The position numbers and the translations under genes were made by a program. This document shows, one piece after another, positions 24,110 through 45,875 of a stretch of DNA of 64,000 bases. Positions within the stretch are counted from its first letter, which is position 1, and each line of letters starts with the position of its first letter. The notes below the pieces were generated by a model. It did not search any database. It was not told the origin of the DNA and was given only the letters and a program-made list of their open reading frames with translations. The DNA is from Bacteroidota bacterium (GTDB taxonomy: Bacteria; Bacteroidota; Ignavibacteria; Kapaibacteriales; UBA2268), in assembly GCA_004322215.1 (NCBI GenBank), contig SCSM01000044.1:1-64000 (forward strand). Reading direction: 5' to 3'.

Positions 24110-27100
24110 TTATTCTCCAATTTCAATAACACCATCATTAAAAATTGATGATGCATTAATTACATTTCCTCTAACATGTAGTGCATCAATTAAAGTACTA
24201 ATATTCAAATTCGAACTTTGATTCATCAAATTCAATCTTACATAAACAGGTGCAGTTACATTTTTTGTGCCATTTCTCAGCAATACATTACCATACCCGA
24301 GTGCGTCAGGTAATCCGAATGGATTGGGTAAAATAGTTTGTAATGCACCATAGAAATCCATTGTACTTGTTTCCGAAAGAAAATAATAACCGAAATTTGT
24401 CAGTGTATTATTTGGGAATGTACCAAGATTCGAACTTAAAATTCCGTTATTATCCAATATAAATGCACCTGTTCCTGTCGTCGAATTAATCGAATTTGCC
24501 TGCATATCGAGTTGTGAATTATTGATAACAAGCAAACTGTCTAACTGCGGATTTGCAGTGTTAAGAGTAATTAAGTGATTCAATCCTATTTCCACAACAT
24601 CTTTGTTATCCATTGTAGTTGCATTAGGAATATCATCAACCTGTGGGCATACAGGAGGAAGATGAGTTGAATTGAAAGTCCATGTTGTATTCAATTCCCA
24701 ATTACCAGTAGCCACGCTGTAAAACCTTCTCGGTGATTTTTCTCCAATATAAAAATCTCCCAAGCCGGCCCATTTTGTTGCTCCGGCTGATAATTCCACA
24801 CTTGCTAAACCGACATTCCAATTTAAGTCCGCTCCATTCCTTTCAGACCACAACGGTACTTCAGCAGGCACGCTCATCCTTCTGACAACAGCATTTGCAG
24901 TATTTACAGTTGCAAGTTCGGTTGGCGGAAATTCCAGATTTACATTGGCGGTTCGACCACCGATAGCAAATGTTCCGCCACTAACGGGATTTAAGCTCCA
25001 GTATCTGGGAACACTGTGCAATGGGTCCATTCTGTTACCCGAATTTGGCGAATAAGGAACAGGTGTTATATTTATTCCATCAACTGCTCCCGATGTTCCA
25101 CCTGCTCCTATCATCGTTATCGTGGCAGGCGTATAACTTGTTCCGTTGCCAATTTCATACGTGTAAGAGCCGGCATCCGTTGGAATAACCTTCTGCAAAT
25201 ATCCGTCAACATATCCAGTACCTGTTCTGTTTACAATTCCGCCGTTTTGAATTATTACTTTCCTGTCAGCATTCCTTACATTTATGATAGAATTTGATGA
25301 TAAATTCATTGTATGGGAAACATAAACCTGTGCTGTAGGCGAAGCCGTATTCTTTGTTACATATATATAACCTCCTGCAAGGTCTAAATCATAATAATTT
25401 ACTCCATCCTGATTTTCGAGAGCCAGTGTATGATTCGAAGGTCCATTAAATATGAAATTCTTTGTCAATGGATTTGTCTTTGTTGTGTTCAGCAAAACCA
25501 TATCTCTGTCAAGCCGTATACTTCTGCTTCCGAAATTTAATGTCCCGTTGATTAATCTTAAATCTTCACTTATATTCAAGTATGGGTCAGGACTTCCTGC
25601 CGCATCGTTACTGAGAAATATTGTATTTGTAGGTGCAATATTATTAATTGTAAGAGAAATAATATTATTTGGTAATCCTCTTCCGGACACCTGACCGCCG
25701 TTAATACCGTTATAAATATATCTGCCGTTGCCGAAAGTTGGGATATTTGTTGATAGAATCGCGCCGGCAGAACCATCTGCTGTTATGCCGCTGACATGAT
25801 GCATTCCGAGTGATGTAGAATCTTCCATAGCAAACGTATTCGTTCTTATCGAACCGAATTGTCCCTGAACATATAAAGCTCCCGGATTTCCGACATTCTT
25901 TTCAAGATATAATATTCTTACATCAGGTGTATAAGTTTCAGGAACTGTGATAGTTCTGCTGTTACCGATATGAACAATATCGCTCACTCCCGGGACAGTA
26001 CTTACCGGCGTTGTCTTTATTGTGTAGCTGTCCAAAGACCAAATCGCTAAATTTGTTGCATCCCATGTACCGTCACTATAACTCCAGTAAACATAACCCG
26101 ACGGTTCACCTGCTACAAAATCTCCGTATTCATTATTATTTGAAGATGTAACATAAGTAGCCGTTCTTGCAGTTGTGCTTGTTTTTTTCCATACCCCGAC
26201 TGCAGGTAGAGCAGGAGTATATAAATGATGCTCGTAATATGTTGTTGGACCCGCAACCGGGTCACCCGGTAAATATGTCGTTGTCAAATTATATGTTCTT
26301 GTTGCACCAAGATTAAATCCATTAGTTGAAATCGTCCAATACCGGTGAACATAATTAGTCAGCTTTATAGGCGGGTCTGCAATAGCTGAATGGTCAACCA
26401 ATGATGTAATTGCTCCGACTAATCCGTTAGTACCTCCTGTACCGACTGCTTCGAAAGTAACAGGTCTGTATTCGGTACTTAATGTTGCCCCGATTGGGAA
26501 TAGCAAACTCTTGGCTCCAGTCGGGAAATACCTGTACATCAAACCGTCAACATGTCCCAAGCCATTTCTTAATACCTGCGGGTCAGTTCCGGCAACATTT
26601 GAATTTAATTCTACGAATTTATTATTATTTCGTGCATTGATATTTACAACATTGTTATTTGGAAATTCAAGCGAATTTCTTATCACTAAATTAGAATTAG
26701 CTGTATTGCCGAGGTAAAGCTCACCACCCGGTTTATCAACTTTCATTCTGTATAACTTCAATCCACCGCTTTCATTATTTGTGATTGTCTGGCTGTTAGA
26801 CTGATTGAAAACCAGTAGCCAGGGGTCAGACTGAGTGCCGCCGGGGTCATAGTAATAACCGTCATTCAATAAATTACCACTTAATTCTACTGTATTTGTA
26901 TTCAAACTGAATGTATGGCTATTGTCAATCGTTAAATTATTCTTAATATTGAATACTTGTTCTGCAATGTAGGTCTTTACACCGGGTCTTGTTGCATGAA
27001 CATCCCAAACAGGCATATTACCACCTACTTTTATCGGTTCTGTGGGAGTAACAACCGGCATTGTCGGATGACCTGTTTGAATTGTACCCGAAACCATTCC

Positions 27101-30100
27101 CAATCCATTGTCAGCAGCACCTTTTACTATCTTAAAATCAGTAGAAGCTCCGGTTGTTCCTGATGCAACATCAATAACTCCACCCAACATTGAAAAAGTC
27201 GAAGATGTTTTACTTATATCAAATCCGGTTAGAGTAGCATCTGTATTTCCATAAGTCATGACAGTAAAAGTACCTGAATTCAATGAGAAATTTATTCTGT
27301 CGCTTGCACCGCTTCTTGTAAAGCATCCAGCAACGTTAACCACACCACCGTTTTGATTATAAGTCGTTCCGGTATTATATTGGAAATACTCATTCGAAGC
27401 ATTTCCTACATTCAGATTTCCCCCGTTAATATCAAACCTTGTATTTACATTAGATATTAAATCGTCTGATGTTGAGACTGAACCGCTTAATATGTTCAAG
27501 CCGGTGTATGGCTGCATACTTACTACGTTATTTCCACCAGAAAGCCATAGATTTCCAGTCTGTATATTTGTCAATATTCCCTTATTCAAATAGAATAAAT
27601 ATTCAGGTACACTGCCTGTTTGGGCAGCAAAAGAATTTGTTGCGACGAGAAGTGTATCTGAAAATCCATTCACTTTGTCTAAGATTACAGGACCCATCGG
27701 CGCCCAATTCCCCTCACCGCTGATTGTGGATGATGAAGCAGTAATTGTAGAACTCGACGGACTTGTAAATTTCAATACGGAATAATTATTAGCATCTGTG
27801 AATAAATCCACTGCATTAACAACAGTTGATATATTGCTTAAGTTTTTAAATATTGAAAGCGTGTCTTTATTATTACCTGAGCCGGCAGCCCTGACCTCTC
27901 CATCAGTCAGTACACCAAGATTACTGTATATTGTCAGTGATTTATTTACCGGTGCATTTCCAAACTGAAGCACCCCTGATAAAGCACTTGCTGTATTCGA
28001 AGAACCGCCGATTTGTAATGAATCAATCAAATCGCTTGAAATATTATAAGTCAAAGTATGACCATCAATAATTACAGTATCACGGTTGTATATCTGCCCT
28101 GGATAATACGCAGAAGGAACACCGGTATGATTTTCATTCGACCAGTTTGAACCTACATTCCAATTACCTGTATTTCTGCTCCAGAAAATTCTACCCGTGA
28201 AAAATCCCGATGCCTCGCCTGCTGTCCAATCACCATCATAGTATAATGAATTTGTTATTGATATTGGCGATGGATTTGCAATCGGATTAACACCCAAATT
28301 GATTTCCCAGAAATTATTCGTTTTAAATAATCCGGGTATATACAGAGATTGATTTCCATTTATATCGGCAGGAACATAAGTAAAGCTCATCGAATTGGCA
28401 GTAACATTAGATATTCCATTTGTAAGTACATTCCAGTATTTACCTAATATGTTATCAGACATCCTGTTCGGATGTAATCCTGCTCTAAGCTTCAAAGCAA
28501 CAGAAGGACTAACTGTATAGGTGCCGGTTAAACTTATACTTGCAGGGTTGTAAGTTGTACCTATACCCACCGGGAAGAAATAAGACTTTGCACCCGCAGC
28601 ACCTGTATATTGTTTAATAATACTTCCCATGGTCGATGAACCTTCAGATAATATCATTCTTGTTCCGCTGAAAACACCAGTGCCGGGGCTGATTGCCAGC
28701 GCACTTGGACCAAAAATCAAATCATAATTCAGTGGTCTTAAATAATTGTCTTTATTGAAAGTCAATTGATTATTAATTGTTGTGTTTCTTTGCAATTGCA
28801 CTGTGCCGCTTGGTTTATCGAGAACGACATTATAAAAAGATGTTGAACTCGAACCTTTTATATTTTGTGTCAAAGTACTGTCGAAAGTCAATGCCCCCTG
28901 AACACCGCCACCAAAAGCATTTTGATTATTATTATTAATAAATTCACCCTGCAATCTCAAAGATTGTGTATTTGAATTATATGTACCGTTTGTAAGCAAA
29001 ATGGAATCCTTAACGATTTCCCCGATTGTTTGGGTAACTGTCGAACTTGAATTTAACGTATTAACAGTTATTGAACCGATTCTTGTCGGAATTGCATCAC
29101 CAGTATTTTGAGTAAAAGTATTTAAAAATGTATTATTTACAATATTAATAGTATAATCCTGGACTTCCCCGGCATCAGCCCTGTTTATGCATGGGTCAAG
29201 AGTAGCATTGCTGTTCCTCGCTACAAGCCGCATATATGTCGTTCCTGCAACAGTGTTGGCAGGAACTGTAAATGTAATATCTGCAGAATAAGAACTATCG
29301 ATATCGAATTGTCTTCCTGCTGCACTCGGATACCTCTCGGTTGCAATGTTTTCTAATAAACCGTCAAAGTCCTGGTCAAACCAAAACATACTGTAATAAG
29401 AACCGGGTGAACCGGTATTTGCAATTACAACTCTCATTGTATATTGCGAACCGGCTATTAAAGTAATGCACTTATCAGGGAAATATCTCCATGCATTTAA
29501 ACTTTGCCGGTTATCAAAATGCTCAAATAAAGGAATACCGAAAGTTGCTCCGGGAGATACTCTTACACTGGCGATGTAGCCGGAACCGGAATTAAATCCT
29601 GTACCCGAACAATACCTGAAATCAATATTATTATAAGTCTGGCTTATTCTGCCTTTAGCAGTAAATTCATAATTGCCAGTTATATGTCCATTGTAATTGA
29701 AATTCCTCGATATTGTTGCACCGTTATATTCCCTCTCCAAATTACCTCTTGCAGTATTTGAATGGAAACCGTCTTCAGCCCCTGTTTCTACGATTCCACT
29801 ATCCTTCAATTCAAATACACTAGCCCTAATTACATTTGTACCAAGAATTAATTTACCTCTGCCACCGGAAGTTGTTTCGACAGTAACCGAACCAAGCCGC
29901 TGTTCGTGGAACTCCGGATTACCTGTAAAGCTTGGCCATCCATTACCGATATTAGCATCGAGTGTAACAGTTTTACCATCGCCAATCATAGCAATATCAA
30001 GTCGTCTCATCGGGTATTTGCCAACCTGCGTAATTCCGTCTAAGAAAGTTCCGTTATTTACTGCACTCGAGTAACCAACAGTTGACCATGTATTAGAATC

Positions 30101-33100
30101 TGTCCAATTACCATTTTGTCTGCTGTAATAGTAAGTAATTCCCGGACCTTGCTGTGCAAGCACCCAATCACCATTTAAAATTCTATTGTTTATCGTCAAT
30201 CCTAAATTCAAAGTTCCCAGCGGATTTGCCGTAGAGATATTATATCCCATTGTCGAAATAGTGGTAGCATTCGGTGAATACGTGGCTCCGCCGGCACCAG
30301 TCTGGTTTCTGTCACCGCATGTGCTTCCCGATGCATCATTAAAAGTTGCACTTGGAGGCCTTAGTCTTTGCCAATCTGTTGTTAACGGACCTTTCCAGAA
30401 AGCAAAATCGAAGCACATGATTAATGCTCCTCCGGGAATGTCCTGAGGATTCAAATATTGACCATTTACAGCAATTACCCTGTCGCCACGAACCCAGCCA
30501 TTCAATTCAGGACTTACCATTCTCCAATATTTTGTTATTGCCCTTTCCGGAGGATAACTGTATGGCGGAGGACCTACTGTGGTCAAATCTGCAATATCCG
30601 GCTGAAGAAATCCTAATACCTGTATTCCGCAATATCCTGCAACATCGTTTGCAGGTGTTCCGGATAATCTAATTGTAAACGGATTATATTGATTCCCTAC
30701 ACCTACCTCAAATGTAATTCCCGTGCCTCCACCCGTTGTAGCATTTCCAACTGCACCTTCAGGAATCCATTTTCTCATTTCTCCATTAACATGACCTATT
30801 CCGGTTCTTGTAACAGTTGCAGCATTGACAATTGTCATAATCCATTCACCCTGATTATAATCAGGTCCTGTTAAAGAACTCGAGCTCGGACTCATATCAA
30901 TATAAGCCAGATTTCCTGCCGAAAAAGTAAGATTTGTATTTACAGTTATCATTTGACTGAATCCAACCACTGTCGGTATAAACAAAATTCTCGAGTTCAG
31001 CGTTGCATTATTTACAGCCAAATTGTTAAAAGTAATATCGTTTAATGCAGTAACTGTTTGTGAAGACCTTCCGATAAAATTGAAAGTGCCTGTTCCTGAA
31101 CCGAATGTTCCTACTCCATCTATTCGCCAATTTCCGACAAGAGAAATGCTGTTGGCTCCTGATGCAAGTGTCCCCTGCTGAATATATAAACTATCAGATA
31201 TGGTATTGCTGGCATTTGATAATGTTACAGTACTGCCCAATCCTTTAGCAACTGTAAGGGTTGCAATAACACCCGGTAATCCATTACCTGTTACCTGTAC
31301 GGCAGCGCCGGTATAAACAAAATTTCCCCGGTTATGATTGTTATAATTGTAACTTCTGGTTGTAACCTGGATATTACCAGTTGCACCTGCATTTGTAATA
31401 CCTGCAGCATCTCCAATACTCATTGTTCCATCTTTGGTCAAGCGGAATTCACCTGTTCCGCTTAAAATATTCGCCCCGCAAATCAGTACACCGCTTGAAT
31501 CAATTGTAACTATCCCACCTGCAGTAATTGGAGACGAATTTAGTGTTATCGTTTTACTGTTCCCGATATAAACAAGAGCATCGTTAGTAGGGGGTATAGC
31601 AGATACCGGTCCCGAATAACTCTGTGTTGACCAGCTTGATGCATTTGTCCAGTTATTGTTATCAATACTGTAAAAACTTAATTGTGTCGGTTCCCCTATT
31701 ATGAATGTGCCCCATTGTGATAATTGTTTGTACTCGGTTGTTGAAGCTGTTCTTGTGCCGGTCAATGGTGAACCGAATCTGTTTGGAGCAACCCATGCAC
31801 CCCCTGAATAAAGCCGTGTTTCAAAATAAAGCGGGTCAGCACCATTTCTCAAATCGCCATTCGGGTCGGCTCCGTTGATAAAACTGTTTATTATATTATA
31901 AGTCATCGTACCGAGTGTGAAAGTGCTTCCGCTTGGAATTGCAGAAGTCCATTGTCTTCTTACATTTCTTGCATCGCTCATTCCGCTTCCGGCAGGATTA
32001 ATTCCTACTGTAACCGGTGAAGTAGTGTTTGTTAACGTATCGGCAGTAACACTAACCAAACCTGCTGTGCCGCCACTTCCATTGAATGTAAGTGTCGTTG
32101 GAGTATATCTCCTGTCATACCCAACTTCAAATAAAACCGAACCAAGTGCAGGGTCAACATATCTTCTCAGGGTTCCGTCTATATGCCCGGGAGCTGCTCC
32201 GGGTCTCGTTAATACCGCTACCTGGGGAATAGTAGCATGGCGTCCCCTGCTTCTAACATTCCCTAAAGGTAAACTTAAAATATTTATTATTATTATTCCA
32301 TTATCAGATGTTGTACCTACTGCTGAAGCATCAACATGATTATAGTTATTCACTGTCATTTTGTAAAATGTCTCATTTCCGGCAAGATATCTTTGCATGA
32401 TTTGTGTGTTCGTTCCTGCAAAATCGACAGTTGAGCCGCCTGCAGAAAAAGCACCACCCTCGTTAGTCCAATTTCCAAGCAAAGTCATTGTCGTTGGTGT
32501 TACAGTCGAAGAAGACATAGTCAAATTAGAAGAAGTAAGGAAAGATATATTTCCCTCAATTCTAATATCATCCAGGGGCTGAATATTTCCCGGACCCGAA
32601 ACAATCAAATGATGAAATGGATTTTCAAATTGATTTCTCGATGTAATTGTATTTGTAAATGACAATACGGGAGAATTAAAATCAACAGTTGCAGTTGACG
32701 GGTCAAAAATTCCACCTGTATTAATCCAATTTCCAGCAACTTTCATATCGAAATAATTGGATGCAAAGGTCGAACTTTCGAGCGTTAGCAAATTAGTAAC
32801 ATTAAATGTAGTCGAAGCAAGTGTTGAATTAAGTTGTTTAATTCCGGTACCTGCAATTTTAAGATTATAATATGATAAATTTACCAAATCATTGACGGGT
32901 GATGCAGGTCTGCACTGTATATTCTGCACACCCCCGTTTTTCTTGAATATTACATTAGAGCCATCGGTAAAGAACTTCTGTGTTGCCACACCTATAAAAT
33001 TCAATGTGGAAATGTCGAAATCCTCTATGATATTAATATCTCCTGAATTTTGAAAAGTAACATTAGTTCCTGCTGCCCGATTACCTCTGATGGTTAAACT

Positions 33101-34885
33101 ATTGTACTGCGAGACAGCAGGGTCTGAGCCGCTGCTTGGTATCGTTACATTTCCAGTACCGTCAAAAGTTATCGTTCCCGATGTAAATGTATTCGTCAGA
33201 TAATTTATAGGATAAGTTGTCCTTACAATCAGTTCACCGCCTCTCATTGTGAATGTTCTGCCGGAACTATTTCCATTAATTGAAAAACCACCTATATCCA
33301 ATGAGCCGATATTTATAACAAGTGAATCACTAATATTAACATTCTTGCTTAAAGTTACCGTTCTTCCGAATGCCTTATCACAGACTACACTTCGCACAGG
33401 GGATGGGACTGCATCTCCGGAAAACTGGTCAAGTGTTGTACTGATGTACTTATAAACAGCATTCTGACTGAATAATCTCGTTAATGTCTGAACATTACCA
33501 CCGGTAGGTCCGGTTGCAGATGAATTAATTCCGTATTGTCCACCTAACTCAAGTCCTCCGTCATCTTCAACTCTGAAAATATTACCTGCAACTGCATCAT
33601 CTGTTTCAAATCTCAGAATACCACCAGCTTCAACCGATAATTCACCGACATTGGATACGGGACCAGTAATCCTTACTTTCATATTAATTCTTACCCTGTC
33701 CGATTGCTTGTTTGGTGCTGTCGTTGAGGCAGGTCCCCCGAAGCTGACTTTTGACCATGTGCCCGGTGTATTATAATCCCCGTTATCAGTGATACTGTAA
33801 TACGTAGCTCTGCCTGTGGCATCTTCACCGGTTGTCCAATCGCCATCGATTGTACTTACCTGCTGAGAATAGAAAAACCGGTTATTAAAATCAGACACAT
33901 TGACTACACCAGGGTCAACACGCCAATATCCGCTCGGATTCGGATAAGATGGATTGAACCACAATACCTTATACTCGCCAACGTTACCAGCTTCTTCAGA
34001 TGCATCCCAATTAAATAATACATTAGCACCATTTGTATTAATTGCAATATTTTGCGAAGTAACAAGCCAATATTTTCTGAGTGAGACATTATTCTTTTCT
34101 ACCATTGGATGTTCATTATTTATTGCCTTAATCGCTATCTGGCATCCAGAAGTTAATGTCCCGCTAATTAAATTCATCTCTGCCGAAGTGTAAACATCAC
34201 CTGTTGAACCAGGTGTCCCCAACGGGAATCTCAGAGTTGGCAACGGTAAAGTAGCGGTAGGGTCAATTTTTCTTACTAATGAGCCGCTGTTTATACCTTG
34301 TGAATTGTATATACATTGAGTCTTGCTAAATACTTTTGTTGTACCATAATCAGAAAAGAACATTGCATTTATGCCCATAGTCAGGTTATAAACACCAATA
34401 TCAACAACAGCATTTGCAATTAACCGCAAAGCATTGTTAACCACAATCTCATTGCCTGTATAAACATAGCCCCCGGTCTTATCAATTACCCATTCATAAA
34501 ATGTTACTGTAGCAGACGGACTCGTTATTGTTTGCGATGTAGGTCCGTAAAAGGTAATCGTAGTCGAATTCGTAGTAAAATCAATCGGACTGTTTAATAT
34601 TAAATTTCCTCCGAGAGTAAATCCCTGGTCAAGGTTCACAGTACCATTATTTGTCAGATTCCCCGAAATTCTCAAATAGCTATTGCCAACCTGCCTGATA
34701 ATACTTGTCGCATTTGTAACGGAGGTATTCATGTTCACCTGAACCTGTGCTCCGGTGCTTAAATAAAAATTTGAATTGCCGTTAATATATAATTGGGAAA
34801 TTGCTTCTTGCGCAGAAAAACAAAAAAGAAAAATCAGAAATACAATTCCTAATGAAATTGACTCCCATTTTTTTATATTATACAA
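24110..34885 (-). CDS. Giant modular secreted protein (3591 residues) with GEVED domain and six long repeats
   Basis: A signal peptide (GIVFLIFLFCFSAQEAISQ) is followed by beta-rich repeats. Six boundaries, near residues 360, 1070, 1585, 2235, 2930 and 3390, share a pattern G-D-W/F-x-x-G-E...YYS..NGNW...TWS and then a D-x-V-x-I-G strand, resembling a G8 domain. Each of the first six segments holds one copy of a GHVDG-x-x-x-R-x-x-P...FPVG-x-G...Y-x-P pattern (for example GLGHVDGLMYRYFPTGAKSL, GIGHVNGEMRKWIP), often ending in a KYW strand; the first and fourth copies are the most diverged. A GEVED-type domain lies at about 1780-1915 (closing AGEVQDYTINI). The C-terminus is VIEIGE, shared with the next gene. 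The start appears to be TTG 34885, since there is no ATG/GTG before a stop 27 bases upstream; Shine-Dalgarno is weak. Probably a surface or matrix protein; function inferred only from architecture. Confidence 0.8.
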   Translation of the reverse strand: MYNIKKWESISLGIVFLIFLFCFSAQEAISQLYINGNSNFYLSTGAQVQVNMNTSVTNATSIIRQVGNSYLRISGNLTNNGTVNLDQGFTLGGNLILNSPIDFTTNSTTITFYGPTSQTITSPSATVTFYEWVIDKTGGYVYTGNEIVVNNALRLIANAVVDIGVYNLTMGINAMFFSDYGTTKVFSKTQCIYNSQGINSGSLVRKIDPTATLPLPTLRFPLGTPGSTGDVYTSAEMNLISGTLTSGCQIAIKAINNEHPMVEKNNVSLRKYWLVTSQNIAINTNGANVLFNWDASEEAGNVGEYKVLWFNPSYPNPSGYWRVDPGVVNVSDFNNRFFYSQQVSTIDGDWTTGEDATGRATYYSITDNGDYNTPGTWSKVSFGGPASTTAPNKQSDRVRINMKVRITGPVSNVGELSVEAGGILRFETDDAVAGNIFRVEDDGGLELGGQYGINSSATGPTGGNVQTLTRLFSQNAVYKYISTTLDQFSGDAVPSPVRSVVCDKAFGRTVTLSKNVNISDSLVINIGSLDIGGFSINGNSSGRTFTMRGGELIVRTTYPINYLTNTFTSGTITFDGTGNVTIPSSGSDPAVSQYNSLTIRGNRAAGTNVTFQNSGDINIIEDFDISTLNFIGVATQKFFTDGSNVIFKKNGGVQNIQCRPASPVNDLVNLSYYNLKIAGTGIKQLNSTLASTTFNVTNLLTLESSTFASNYFDMKVAGNWINTGGIFDPSTATVDFNSPVLSFTNTITSRNQFENPFHHLIVSGPGNIQPLDDIRIEGNISFLTSSNLTMSSSTVTPTTMTLLGNWTNEGGAFSAGGSTVDFAGTNTQIMQRYLAGNETFYKMTVNNYNHVDASAVGTTSDNGIIIINILSLPLGNVRSRGRHATIPQVAVLTRPGAAPGHIDGTLRRYVDPALGSVLFEVGYDRRYTPTTLTFNGSGGTAGLVSVTADTLTNTTSPVTVGINPAGSGMSDARNVRRQWTSAIPSGSTFTLGTMTYNIINSFINGADPNGDLRNGADPLYFETRLYSGGAWVAPNRFGSPLTGTRTASTTEYKQLSQWGTFIIGEPTQLSFYSIDNNNWTNASSWSTQSYSGPVSAIPPTNDALVYIGNSKTITLNSSPITAGGIVTIDSSGVLICGANILSGTGEFRLTKDGTMSIGDAAGITNAGATGNIQVTTRSYNYNNHNRGNFVYTGAAVQVTGNGLPGVIATLTVAKGLGSTVTLSNASNTISDSLYIQQGTLASGANSISLVGNWRIDGVGTFGSGTGTFNFIGRSSQTVTALNDITFNNLAVNNATLNSRILFIPTVVGFSQMITVNTNLTFSAGNLAYIDMSPSSSSLTGPDYNQGEWIMTIVNAATVTRTGIGHVNGEMRKWIPEGAVGNATTGGGTGITFEVGVGNQYNPFTIRLSGTPANDVAGYCGIQVLGFLQPDIADLTTVGPPPYSYPPERAITKYWRMVSPELNGWVRGDRVIAVNGQYLNPQDIPGGALIMCFDFAFWKGPLTTDWQRLRPPSATFNDASGSTCGDRNQTGAGGATYSPNATTISTMGYNISTANPLGTLNLGLTINNRILNGDWVLAQQGPGITYYYSRQNGNWTDSNTWSTVGYSSAVNNGTFLDGITQVGKYPMRRLDIAMIGDGKTVTLDANIGNGWPSFTGNPEFHEQRLGSVTVETTSGGRGKLILGTNVIRASVFELKDSGIVETGAEDGFHSNTARGNLEREYNGATISRNFNYNGHITGNYEFTAKGRISQTYNNIDFRYCSGTGFNSGSGYIASVRVSPGATFGIPLFEHFDNRQSLNAWRYFPDKCITLIAGSQYTMRVVIANTGSPGSYYSMFWFDQDFDGLLENIATERYPSAAGRQFDIDSSYSADITFTVPANTVAGTTYMRLVARNSNATLDPCINRADAGEVQDYTINIVNNTFLNTFTQNTGDAIPTRIGSITVNTLNSSSTVTQTIGEIVKDSILLTNGTYNSNTQSLRLQGEFINNNNQNAFGGGVQGALTFDSTLTQNIKGSSSTSFYNVVLDKPSGTVQLQRNTTINNQLTFNKDNYLRPLNYDLIFGPSALAISPGTGVFSGTRMILSEGSSTMGSIIKQYTGAAGAKSYFFPVGIGTTYNPASISLTGTYTVSPSVALKLRAGLHPNRMSDNILGKYWNVLTNGISNVTANSMSFTYVPADINGNQSLYIPGLFKTNNFWEINLGVNPIANPSPISITNSLYYDGDWTAGEASGFFTGRIFWSRNTGNWNVGSNWSNENHTGVPSAYYPGQIYNRDTVIIDGHTLTYNISSDLIDSLQIGGSSNTASALSGVLQFGNAPVNKSLTIYSNLGVLTDGEVRAAGSGNNKDTLSIFKNLSNISTVVNAVDLFTDANNYSVLKFTSPSSSTITASSSTISGEGNWAPMGPVILDKVNGFSDTLLVATNSFAAQTGSVPEYLFYLNKGILTNIQTGNLWLSGGNNVVSMQPYTGLNILSGSVSTSDDLISNVNTRFDINGGNLNVGNASNEYFQYNTGTTYNQNGGVVNVAGCFTRSGASDRINFSLNSGTFTVMTYGNTDATLTGFDISKTSSTFSMLGGVIDVASGTTGASTDFKIVKGAADNGLGMVSGTIQTGHPTMPVVTPTEPIKVGGNMPVWDVHATRPGVKTYIAEQVFNIKNNLTIDNSHTFSLNTNTVELSGNLLNDGYYYDPGGTQSDPWLLVFNQSNSQTITNNESGGLKLYRMKVDKPGGELYLGNTANSNLVIRNSLEFPNNNVVNINARNNNKFVELNSNVAGTDPQVLRNGLGHVDGLMYRYFPTGAKSLLFPIGATLSTEYRPVTFEAVGTGGTNGLVGAITSLVDHSAIADPPIKLTNYVHRYWTISTNGFNLGATRTYNLTTTYLPGDPVAGPTTYYEHHLYTPALPAVGVWKKTSTTARTATYVTSSNNNEYGDFVAGEPSGYVYWSYSDGTWDATNLAIWSLDSYTIKTTPVSTVPGVSDIVHIGNSRTITVPETYTPDVRILYLEKNVGNPGALYVQGQFGSIRTNTFAMEDSTSLGMHHVSGITADGSAGAILSTNIPTFGNGRYIYNGINGGQVSGRGLPNNIISLTINNIAPTNTIFLSNDAAGSPDPYLNISEDLRLINGTLNFGSRSIRLDRDMVLLNTTKTNPLTKNFIFNGPSNHTLALENQDGVNYYDLDLAGGYIYVTKNTASPTAQVYVSHTMNLSSNSIINVRNADRKVIIQNGGIVNRTGTGYVDGYLQKVIPTDAGSYTYEIGNGTSYTPATITMIGAGGTSGAVDGINITPVPYSPNSGNRMDPLHSVPRYWSLNPVSGGTFAIGGRTANVNLEFPPTELATVNTANAVVRRMSVPAEVPLWSERNGADLNWNVGLASVELSAGATKWAGLGDFYIGEKSPRRFYSVATGNWELNTTWTFNSTHLPPVCPQVDDIPNATTMDNKDVVEIGLNHLITLNTANPQLDSLLVINNSQLDMQANSINSTTGTGAFILDNNGILSSNLGTFPNNTLTNFGYYFLSETSTMDFYGALQTILPNPFGLPDALGYGNVLLRNGTKNVTAPVYVRLNLMNQSSNLNISTLIDALHVRGNVINASSIFNDGVIEIGE

Positions 34886-42659: not shown

Positions 42660-43787
42660 TTAATGATTTATTTCATTATACAGCGATAAAATATCATTAG
42701 CAAAACTTTCCCATGTGTATTTTTGTTTAAATTTTTCAATATTGGATGAATATTTATCATATAGTTTATTATCAAAGTATTCCCTGACATTATTTTTAAT
42801 TAAATCAATATCCGCATAAGGTATAACTGTTCCTGTTCCGAATGGCTCGATAACTTCCCGCAACCCTCCTACGTCAGTTGTAATAACAGGTAAACCGAAA
42901 TTATAGGCAACGCCGATTATTCCGCTTTGAGTTGCACTTCTATAAGGTAAAACACAAACGTCTGCTGACGAAAAGTAAGGTGCCACATCATTATCACTTA
43001 CATATTGATTGATAAATTTTACCCGGTCACCAACTCCTGATTGCCTGATTAAATCAAAGTACTCTTTCTCATTACCATAAACCTCACCAACTGCAAGAAG
43101 ATAATAATCATTCGTTAATTCACCGACTGCCCTTATTAGTAAATCCAACCCTTTGTAATTTCTAATTAAACCAAAAAATAGAATCACCTTCTTATCTGCC
43201 GGAATGTTAAGAATTTCCCTGGCTTTGTCTTTTGGGAACTTCGCTCCGAAATGTTCATAATTCGGATGAGGATGTTTCCGGAATATTGATTCAGGTTTTA
43301 CACTCAACAAATCCTTTTTTACGGAATCGGCGAGAACAATGAATCCGTCGCATCTGTTTAGGAAATATTTAATCAATGAAATGTCACCCGGTTTCTTTTC
43401 ATGTGGAATGACATTACTAAGTATGCTTATTGTCTTGATACCTTTTTTCTTTAATTTCTTACTTACATACCCTAATGCCGGAGCAAAGAATGGAAGCCAG
43501 AAATCCATCAATAATAAGTCGGCATTGTAATTTTCAATTTCTCTTACAGTTTTGAAAAAACTGATTGGATTAATCGAATCAAGAATTTTAATTGATGGAA
43601 TTTTATCGGCTGTATCTTTATCGTTTACAAATTGTGTTTTCCCCGGGAATAGAATATTCGGGTACAATCTTTTGAAATTGAATGCCCGAATTTCGTTACC
43701 TTTTTCCAATGCCCTGTAAACACAGGCGTTGAATTGGGAAATACCTCCACGATAAGGATAAAATACAGATAAAAAAGCAATTCTCAT
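42660..43787 (-). CDS. Glycosyltransferase family 4
   Basis: The 375-residue protein is a GT-B fold glycosyltransferase: N-terminal acceptor domain (FLSVFYPYRGGISQF near residues 5-19), then a C-terminal donor domain with KVILFFGLIRNYKGLDLLI, VLPYRSATQSGIIGVAYNF and GLPVITTDVGGLREVI, the last holding the E-x7-E-like sugar-nucleotide site. It probably works in cell-surface polysaccharide or glycoprotein synthesis. The substrate cannot be read from sequence. It is divergent to the SAM methyltransferase gene, with a 111-bp shared intergenic region, a common arrangement in glycan clusters. Confidence 0.9.
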   Translation of the reverse strand: MRIAFLSVFYPYRGGISQFNACVYRALEKGNEIRAFNFKRLYPNILFPGKTQFVNDKDTADKIPSIKILDSINPISFFKTVREIENYNADLLLMDFWLPFFAPALGYVSKKLKKKGIKTISILSNVIPHEKKPGDISLIKYFLNRCDGFIVLADSVKKDLLSVKPESIFRKHPHPNYEHFGAKFPKDKAREILNIPADKKVILFFGLIRNYKGLDLLIRAVGELTNDYYLLAVGEVYGNEKEYFDLIRQSGVGDRVKFINQYVSDNDVAPYFSSADVCVLPYRSATQSGIIGVAYNFGLPVITTDVGGLREVIEPFGTGTVIPYADIDLIKNNVREYFDNKLYDKYSSNIEKFKQKYTWESFANDILSLYNEINH

Positions 43788-44786: not shown

Positions 44787-44813
44787 TAAAGTTTTTGGGA
44801 AATGAGCCGATAA
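44787..44813 (+). promoter_or_regulatory. Perfect sigma-28 (FliA) promoter
   Basis: TAAAGTTT (44787-44794), 11 bases, then GCCGATAA (44806-44813) match the FliA consensus TAAAGTTT-N11-GCCGATAA at all 16 fixed positions. The start codon of the next gene is at 44860, giving a plausible 5' leader of about 40 bases with Shine-Dalgarno aaggag at 44848-44853. Confidence 0.85.
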
Positions 44814-44859
44814 TTATTCAAAAGATAGATTTATTACTCCAATATATAAGGAGAGAGAG

Positions 44860-45081
44860 ATGACGATAGATAAATTAACAGAACAAGATGTAAATGTGAC
44901 TGAAAAGCCACCGATTACAGTTCAGAATGAAATTCAGAAAGATGTAATCAAAGAAGCAATCGGTGCTGAAAGCACTCAAAAACAGCTATTGCAGGTGCTG
45001 GCAACTGCACAACCGCAACAGCAAATACAGCAAACTGCAAAAGACCAGATTGAAAAAGGATTTCTGGACATTAAAGTTTAA
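44860..45081 (+). CDS. Small polar protein driven by a sigma-28 promoter (YjfB-like motility protein?)
   Basis: The 73-residue protein is Gln/Lys/Glu-rich with no signal peptide or membrane helix. It has a helix-forming run (QKDVIKEAIGAESTQKQLL), a Gln-rich stretch (TAQPQQQIQQTAKDQ) and ends FLDIKV. The two-part helix-Gln-rich-DIKV form resembles the short YjfB-type 'putative motility protein' family, but I cannot confirm it by alignment. A perfect sigma-28 promoter and a strong aaggag Shine-Dalgarno precede it, so it belongs to the motility regulon in all likelihood. An FkbM methyltransferase gene starts 47 bp later with no visible terminator between them. Function unknown. Confidence 0.75.
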   Translation: MTIDKLTEQDVNVTEKPPITVQNEIQKDVIKEAIGAESTQKQLLQVLATAQPQQQIQQTAKDQIEKGFLDIKV

Positions 45082-45128: not shown

Positions 45129-45875
45129 ATGAAAATTAAAGATATTGTACAAAACACACTTAGAAAATTTGGTTTTGAAATACGTAGAACTAATGCCTCG
45201 ATTGAAGTTTTTTCTTTACAAAAACTTTTAATAAAAAAAGAAAATCCAATTATTTTTGACATTGGCGCCTGCCATGGTTCAGTTGCTATGACTTACAATG
45301 AACTTTTCAAAAATCCTTCTATTTATTGCTTTGAGCCATTTTCAGAATCTTATTATATTTTGCAGAAGAATGTAAGTAATTTCTCAAATATTAAATGTCT
45401 GAATTGTGCTATTTCTGATAAAAAGGGTAAAGCAAATTTAAATGTTAATAAAAATTCAGCTACAAATTCATTACTCCAATCTGACGATAGAGGGGAAGAA
45501 TTTTGGGGTAAAAAATTATATGATACTGAGACTGTTGTTAATGTTGATACAATTACAATTGATGAGTTTATACGAGATATTTCAGTTCCACACATTGATA
45601 TATTAAAAATTGATGTACAAGGTGGCGAATATGAAGTATTTTGCGGTGCAAAAGAATCATTATCAAATCAAAATATATCACTGATTTATTCCGAAATGAT
45701 TATGTGCCCTACTTATAGAGGACAGCATAAAATCAGTGAATACTTTACAATGCTCGATTCATTCGGCTATCAATTCCTCGATTTTTTTAATCCTGTAAGA
45801 AGGCACAATCAGCTTATCCAGGCAGATGTAATATTCCTGAACAAATCTATAATGGAAAATATTATAAATTACTGA
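45129..45875 (+). CDS. FkbM-family methyltransferase
   Basis: The 248-residue protein shows FkbM-type class I methyltransferase marks: IIFDIGACHGSVAM (motif I, near residue 40), CFEPFSESYYIL, and IDILKIDVQGGEYEVF (near residue 157) followed by GAKESL. These enzymes make methyl ethers on sugars and polyketides. Its position 47 bp after the sigma-28-controlled small gene without an obvious terminator means it could be expressed with motility genes, for example to methylate a flagellin glycan; this is inference. The stop lies in a 13-bp tandem repeat. Confidence 0.9.
   Translation: MKIKDIVQNTLRKFGFEIRRTNASIEVFSLQKLLIKKENPIIFDIGACHGSVAMTYNELFKNPSIYCFEPFSESYYILQKNVSNFSNIKCLNCAISDKKGKANLNVNKNSATNSLLQSDDRGEEFWGKKLYDTETVVNVDTITIDEFIRDISVPHIDILKIDVQGGEYEVFCGAKESLSNQNISLIYSEMIMCPTYRGQHKISEYFTMLDSFGYQFLDFFNPVRRHNQLIQADVIFLNKSIMENIINY

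Follow-up and report, generated by a model that had tools for sequence, protein, structure and literature searches.

We found that a small stand-alone gene in the window (the whole stretch of 64,000 nucleotides of DNA that was analysed) is preceded by a perfect sigma-28 type promoter site, and that its 73-residue product is probably a late flagellar protein of the host, as judged from sequence comparison. The site consists of a −35 element, TAAAGTTT (44787–44794, forward strand), an 11-base spacer (44795–44805) and a −10 element, GCCGATAA (44806–44813). It matches the consensus at 16 of 16 bases with a spacer of 11, and the ATG at 44860 lies 46 bases past the −10 element, exactly as the first-pass annotation had claimed. 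A ribosome-binding-site-like AAGGAG can be read off the sequence at 44848–44853. The E. coli sigma-28 consensus TAAAGTTT-n11-GCCGATAA is in print in PMC2859248. By its sequence, the site at 44787–44813 is a promoter of the sigma-28 (FliA) type, and we infer that FliA transcribes from it.

Such a site is hardly produced by base composition. In an order-1 Markov simulation with the same dinucleotide make-up (1,600 runs of 64 kb), perfect matches appeared in none of the runs, and matches with at most one and at most three mismatches appeared 0.006 and 1.34 times per run, respectively. The window contains two matches with at most three mismatches against the 1.34 expected. The other one (29926–29952, three mismatches) lies within an ORF of 3591 aa on the reverse strand (24110–34885). 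Therefore, the earlier statement that no other copy is found upstream of a gene in the window holds; the sole additional match is intragenic.

The site also recurs upstream of related genes. We compared 33 upstream regions of family members, which are related to each other and not independent; 27 came from genomes found by the single-sequence search and six from the 21 loci in named genomes. The other 15 loci were excluded, 14 because they lie on contigs already counted and one (L117) because too little upstream sequence was available. In 13 of the 33 regions, no more than 3 of 200 dinucleotide shuffles equalled the best match, which always had a spacer of 11 under a score that penalised other spacers by one. 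In these 13, the site ends 17–53 bases before the ATG. All five of G000–G003 and G015 are among them, and thus the nearest orthologues (G001, G002, G003 and G015) all keep the site. When seven upstream regions, picked because they bear the site, were aligned (the row of G018 ends one base off), TAAAGT-T, that is, seven of the eight columns of the −35 element, and CCGAT of the −10 element were invariant and most of the spacer had diverged. The absence of perfect matches from 1,600 simulations and the recurrence before 13 of 33 family members indicate that the promoter site is not a product of chance. The remaining 20 regions showed no recognisable sigma-28 site in the dinucleotide-shuffle test, although one of them (G033) was taken upstream of an internal ATG and hence represents the wrong region. 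Thus, either part of the family is not under sigma-28 control, or the consensus has drifted in these members.

The ORF itself (44860–45081, forward strand) encodes a Gln-rich protein of 73 residues that ends in DIKV and has homologues in related genomes. The dN/dS ratios among four congeners are 0.03–0.13, showing that the ORF is under purifying selection; for pairs that include G015, silent sites are saturated. Conservation in the family alignment is strongest at the C-terminus (A60, Q63, G67, L69, D70 and K72). The C-terminal peptide of the family is mostly G-[FY]-L-D-[IV]-K-[IV]; in the window protein it is GFLDIKV (residues 67–73, codons at 45058–45078, forward strand). The N-terminal part is poorly conserved and was modelled with low confidence. 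No signal peptide or membrane segment was seen by eye. The AlphaFold2 model is poor (mean pLDDT 54.3), with helices at residues 21–35, 39–50 and 53–65. The protein has a variable N-terminus and a probably helical middle part. The sensitive profile search proposed earlier for the 73 residues recovered a conserved family in relatives and no significant match in Pfam, NCBIfam or PDB. Neither of the first two databases yielded a match of the window protein up to an E value of 1, and a PDB search with the family profile gave no match up to E 10. Among 26 family members, only scattered single-member matches were observed in Pfam and NCBIfam, none of them significant; the NCBIfam scan hit seven families, one member each, with a best E value of 0.013 and names unrelated to motility. 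Nothing on the family was found in the literature, where searching by name cannot reach an unnamed protein.

Distribution of the family follows that of flagella. With the single sequence as query, the ORF was recovered from 27 of 60 genomes, its own among them. Of these matches, 26 formed the alignment A1; G033 was omitted since an internal ATG had been taken as its start, and the G012 member was entered from an internal ATG. A profile search found the family in 30 of the 60 genomes, 26 of which had gone into the profile and therefore match it necessarily. FlhA is present in 48 of the 60, the host genome included. The family occurs in 30 of the 48 FlhA-positive relatives and in none of the 12 FlhA-negative ones. 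Within the host's own taxonomic family, 27 of 32 FlhA-positive and none of four FlhA-negative genomes carry the small ORF, and in genus g3, FlhA-positive G005 has a member and FlhA-negative G029 does not. No member was detected in 18 of the 48 FlhA-positive relatives. Outside the host's taxonomic family, 3 of 16 FlhA-positive genomes carry a member, G051 clearly, G050 and G057 weakly. Across the phylum, the profile matched 10 of 395 genomes, nine of them in the host's own order; a match in G124 lies inside a frame of 1032 residues and is probably spurious. The 21 loci in named genomes, found with the ten-row alignment A2, are labelled Ignavibacteria, Ignavibacteriae, Bacteroidetes, Candidatus Kapabacteria or Kapaibacterium, plus rarer labels: Chloroherpeton thalassium twice, and Desulfobulbaceae and a plain 'bacterium' once each. 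By these labels, the host belongs in the vicinity of Kapabacteria/Ignavibacteria. The member on the contig labelled Desulfobulbaceae (L111) may reflect mis-binning or transfer. On these sequence data, the family is conserved and lineage-restricted.

Flagella are uncommon in Bacteroidota. The host genome (47 contigs totalling 4.2 Mb, completeness 96.7%) encodes a FliA/WhiG-type sigma factor (TIGR02479, 205 bits against a cut-off of 189.6). FlgK, FlaG, FliM, FliL and FliS are above Pfam cut-offs, and four Flagellin_N matches correspond to three flagellins and one FlgL-like ORF. FliD, FliW and a MotB/MotD-type protein have strong NCBIfam matches, yet under the cut-offs of those models. FlhF was matched as an SRP54-type domain and FlhG as a MinD/ParA-type domain. 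The flagellar operons were read in eight stretches, and gene names without a listed model match are our reading. The operons read are FlhF-FlhG-[187-aa ORF]-FliA, FlgI-FlgJ-FlgN-FlgK-FlgL-MotA, flagellin-FliS-FliD-FlaG, FliL-FliM-FliN-FliO and MotB-FliW-CsrA. Thus, the search for fliA that had been proposed found it above a curated cut-off together with many flagellar genes, and FliA, FlhA, the flagellins and the further genes bear out the suggestion that the organism is motile or of motile ancestry; motility of the host would follow from these genes. Flagellar and chemotaxis genes have been reported from a Candidatus Kapabacteria MAG (PMC7509429), and the flagellar genes of a related MAG are not in one cluster (PMC6338057). 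The 187-aa ORF between FlhG and FliA contains a hydrophobic stretch (L094 4399–4962, contig C34 of the host genome) and has a counterpart of 202 aa in G022 (L124). Its position recalls that of FlgV in other phyla, as described in PMC11607428.

We also looked at sigma-28 sites elsewhere in the host genome. With at most one mismatch, three matches were seen against 0.37 expected (scaled from the window simulation): the site at 44787, one located 22 bases before the MotB/MotD-type gene, and one antisense within an ORF of 537 aa. The site before the MotB-type gene, with one mismatch, is the next-best intergenic match of the genome. The antisense match was counted against the regulon reading; in E. 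coli, 30 of 52 FliA sites are intragenic (PMC4183435). Weaker sites lie 70 bases before a flagellin (two mismatches, spacer 12), 212 bases before FliS (three mismatches) and 42 bases before FliL (three mismatches, spacer 12). The expectation of further sites before flagellar genes was thus borne out for the MotB-type gene, a flagellin, FliS and FliL, but not for the two-flagellin tandem on contig C25, whose strand bears no consensus site. Genome-wide, matches with at most three mismatches are not enriched (118 seen against 88 expected, and the reversed control pattern gave 209). In the 60 related genomes, TAAAGTTT-N11-RCCGATW occurs exactly 19 times versus six for the reversed pattern. Six of the 19 precede the small ORF or its orthologues, the window's own site included. 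Five lie within flagellar operons as read: one each before a flagellin, FliD and a FlaG-like ORF, one between FlhG and FliA, and one following a FliD-FlaG pair. One precedes an HDOD-like ORF, and seven are unassigned or probably due to chance.

Besides its promoter, the small gene has no fixed surroundings. It stands alone amid changing neighbours in the 26 of 29 fetched neighbourhoods in which the nearest neighbours were read (the small gene was not located in L189–L191). Comparison with 24 flagellar proteins of the host genome revealed no flagellar gene in the 29 neighbourhoods. The sole match, 76 residues of a 675-aa ORF against the MotB-type protein, was taken for an OmpA-like domain. CheW-like, CheY-like and STAS-like ORFs were seen by eye near the small gene in at least a few neighbourhoods. 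In the window, a gene for an FkbM-type methyltransferase (45129–45875, forward strand) begins 47 bases downstream of the small ORF with no terminator-like site found between them; transcription from the sigma-28 promoter may run on into this gene. This methyltransferase has no relative in the 29 neighbourhoods, and G001, G002, G003 and G015 have a different gene at its position; therefore, it was either gained in the window or lost in those four genomes. A GT4 glycosyltransferase gene (42660–43787) is found near the small gene in G000–G003 and G015 and is adjacent to it in G030 and G051 (46% and 34% identical, respectively); besides the window, six of the 29 neighbourhoods have a relative. This link to the small gene may be old, and we regard it as a lead only. 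As far as these genomes tell, the small gene is unlinked to flagellar genes yet travels with flagella.

Because the site recurs, the ORF is under purifying selection, the family co-occurs with FlhA and flagellar genes including FliA are present in the genome, the assignment of the small protein to the late flagellar regulon, first made from the promoter, is supported by comparison. Other explanations were weighed against it. The small protein might be exported by the flagellar type III apparatus. The late promoter, the lack of a visible signal peptide and the poorly conserved N-terminal part with its low model confidence are consistent with export, but the same features would fit a cytoplasmic protein, and we consider export unlikely.

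The small protein had also been compared to YjfB-type motility proteins, and a divergent member of the YjfB family (PF14070), homologous to that of Bacillus and Clostridia, would resemble it in its similarly small size, its late flagellar association and its C-terminal D-phi-K-phi. The YjfB of A. noterae (80.5 bits on PF14070) precedes ORFs read as FlaG, FliD and FliS, and the G051 member has a sub-threshold PF14070 match (E 0.068; E 0.22 at the same place in the genome search). However, no significant sequence or profile match connects the two, and the window family is longer and Gln-rich. None of the other 25 of 26 family members matches PF14070 at E 1, the best of the 26 reaches 13.6 bits against a cut-off of 27, and the window protein has no match. 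PF14070 was above cut-off in none of the 60 relatives (nine genomes sub-threshold) and in none of the 395 genomes of the phylum (10 sub-threshold), and a viral scan found no YjfB relatives. In hhalign, only four columns (LDIK) were aligned with two YjfB proteins, with probabilities of 0.9% and 0.7% (the A. noterae sequence lacks its last residue in this alignment, A4). Full shuffles equalled the scores of the YjfB proteins on the family models 23 to 78 times in 500, and shuffles with the last five residues kept did so 30 to 109 times in 500; with two sequences of 80.5 and 49.7 bits on PF14070, this comparison is a weak test. Membership in YjfB thus fails both the PF14070 cut-off and the profile comparison, and we judge it improbable.

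The small protein could also be the anti-sigma-28 factor FlgM of the lineage. It is small and belongs to the sigma-28 regulon by its late promoter, as FlgM does, and the Pfam model PF04316 is above cut-off in none of the 60 genomes (nine sub-threshold, best E 8.5e-4, none in the host genome). However, neither Pfam nor NCBIfam gave the small ORF a FlgM match, and none is listed for the 26 members (PF04316 or TIGR03824). The host genome contains a better candidate in a late operon, an ORF of 95 aa located after FlaG and a 115-aa ORF. In NCBIfam, this 95-aa ORF matches FlgM TIGR03824 alone, with an E value of 0.0084 that falls short of the cut-off. An 84-aa ORF at a comparable position in G012 (L131) shares 50% identity with it across 48 residues and has no FlgM match itself, so that the candidate stays unproven. 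No alignment was obtained between the candidate and the 73-aa protein (111–311 of 500 shuffles equal the score). Since this better, though unproven, candidate exists, we rejected the FlgM identity of the small protein, which appears very improbable. The 95-aa ORF (L096, reverse strand, between FlaG and SSB) is not detected by PF04316, and the Pfam model may miss the FlgM of this lineage. Lastly, that the site is a chance match before a gene unrelated to flagella fits the 20 of 33 upstream regions without a site and the non-flagellar neighbours, but is scarcely credible given its recurrence in the nearest relatives around a diverged spacer, the co-occurrence with FlhA and the second intergenic site before the MotB-type gene.

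Thus, we return to the late flagellar reading. Sigma-28 (FliA) would transcribe the stand-alone small gene together with the late flagellar genes. The product of about 73 residues would be an accessory factor of late flagellar assembly, of the filament or of motor function, and its C-terminal peptide would bind a flagellar partner. Transcription by FliA, action in the flagellum and the peptide as a binding element are what we infer from the comparisons, and we hold the whole explanation, from promoter through stand-alone gene to an accessory protein docking by its C-terminal peptide, to be likely. The promoter resembles those of E. coli in all 16 bases and the spacer, and a FliA/WhiG sigma factor is encoded here as well (PMC2859248); unlike in E. 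coli, it stands in a far-removed lineage in which several late genes carry weaker sites or lack them. A small accessory flagellar protein is also known from spirochaetes and Firmicutes, FlgV (bb0268). According to PMC11607428, two membrane helices are predicted for FlgV, and its gene is always part of the flagellar superoperon, whereas the small ORF shows no membrane helices by eye and lies outside such a superoperon.

We propose, with a little less than even confidence, a new, lineage-restricted family of flagellar proteins in Kapabacteria-type bacteria, founded by this ORF, in which a C-terminal peptide docks onto a conserved flagellar partner. This family would control late assembly or modulate the filament or motor, a task for which other organisms may use unrelated small proteins such as YjfB. 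The enterobacterial sigma-28 promoter code is kept to the letter in an uncultured, flagellated lineage on the side of Bacteroidota. Reading of the promoter code can reveal short regulon members that protein-family searches overlook, and the small-protein family is a clear target for studying the role of small accessory flagellar proteins.
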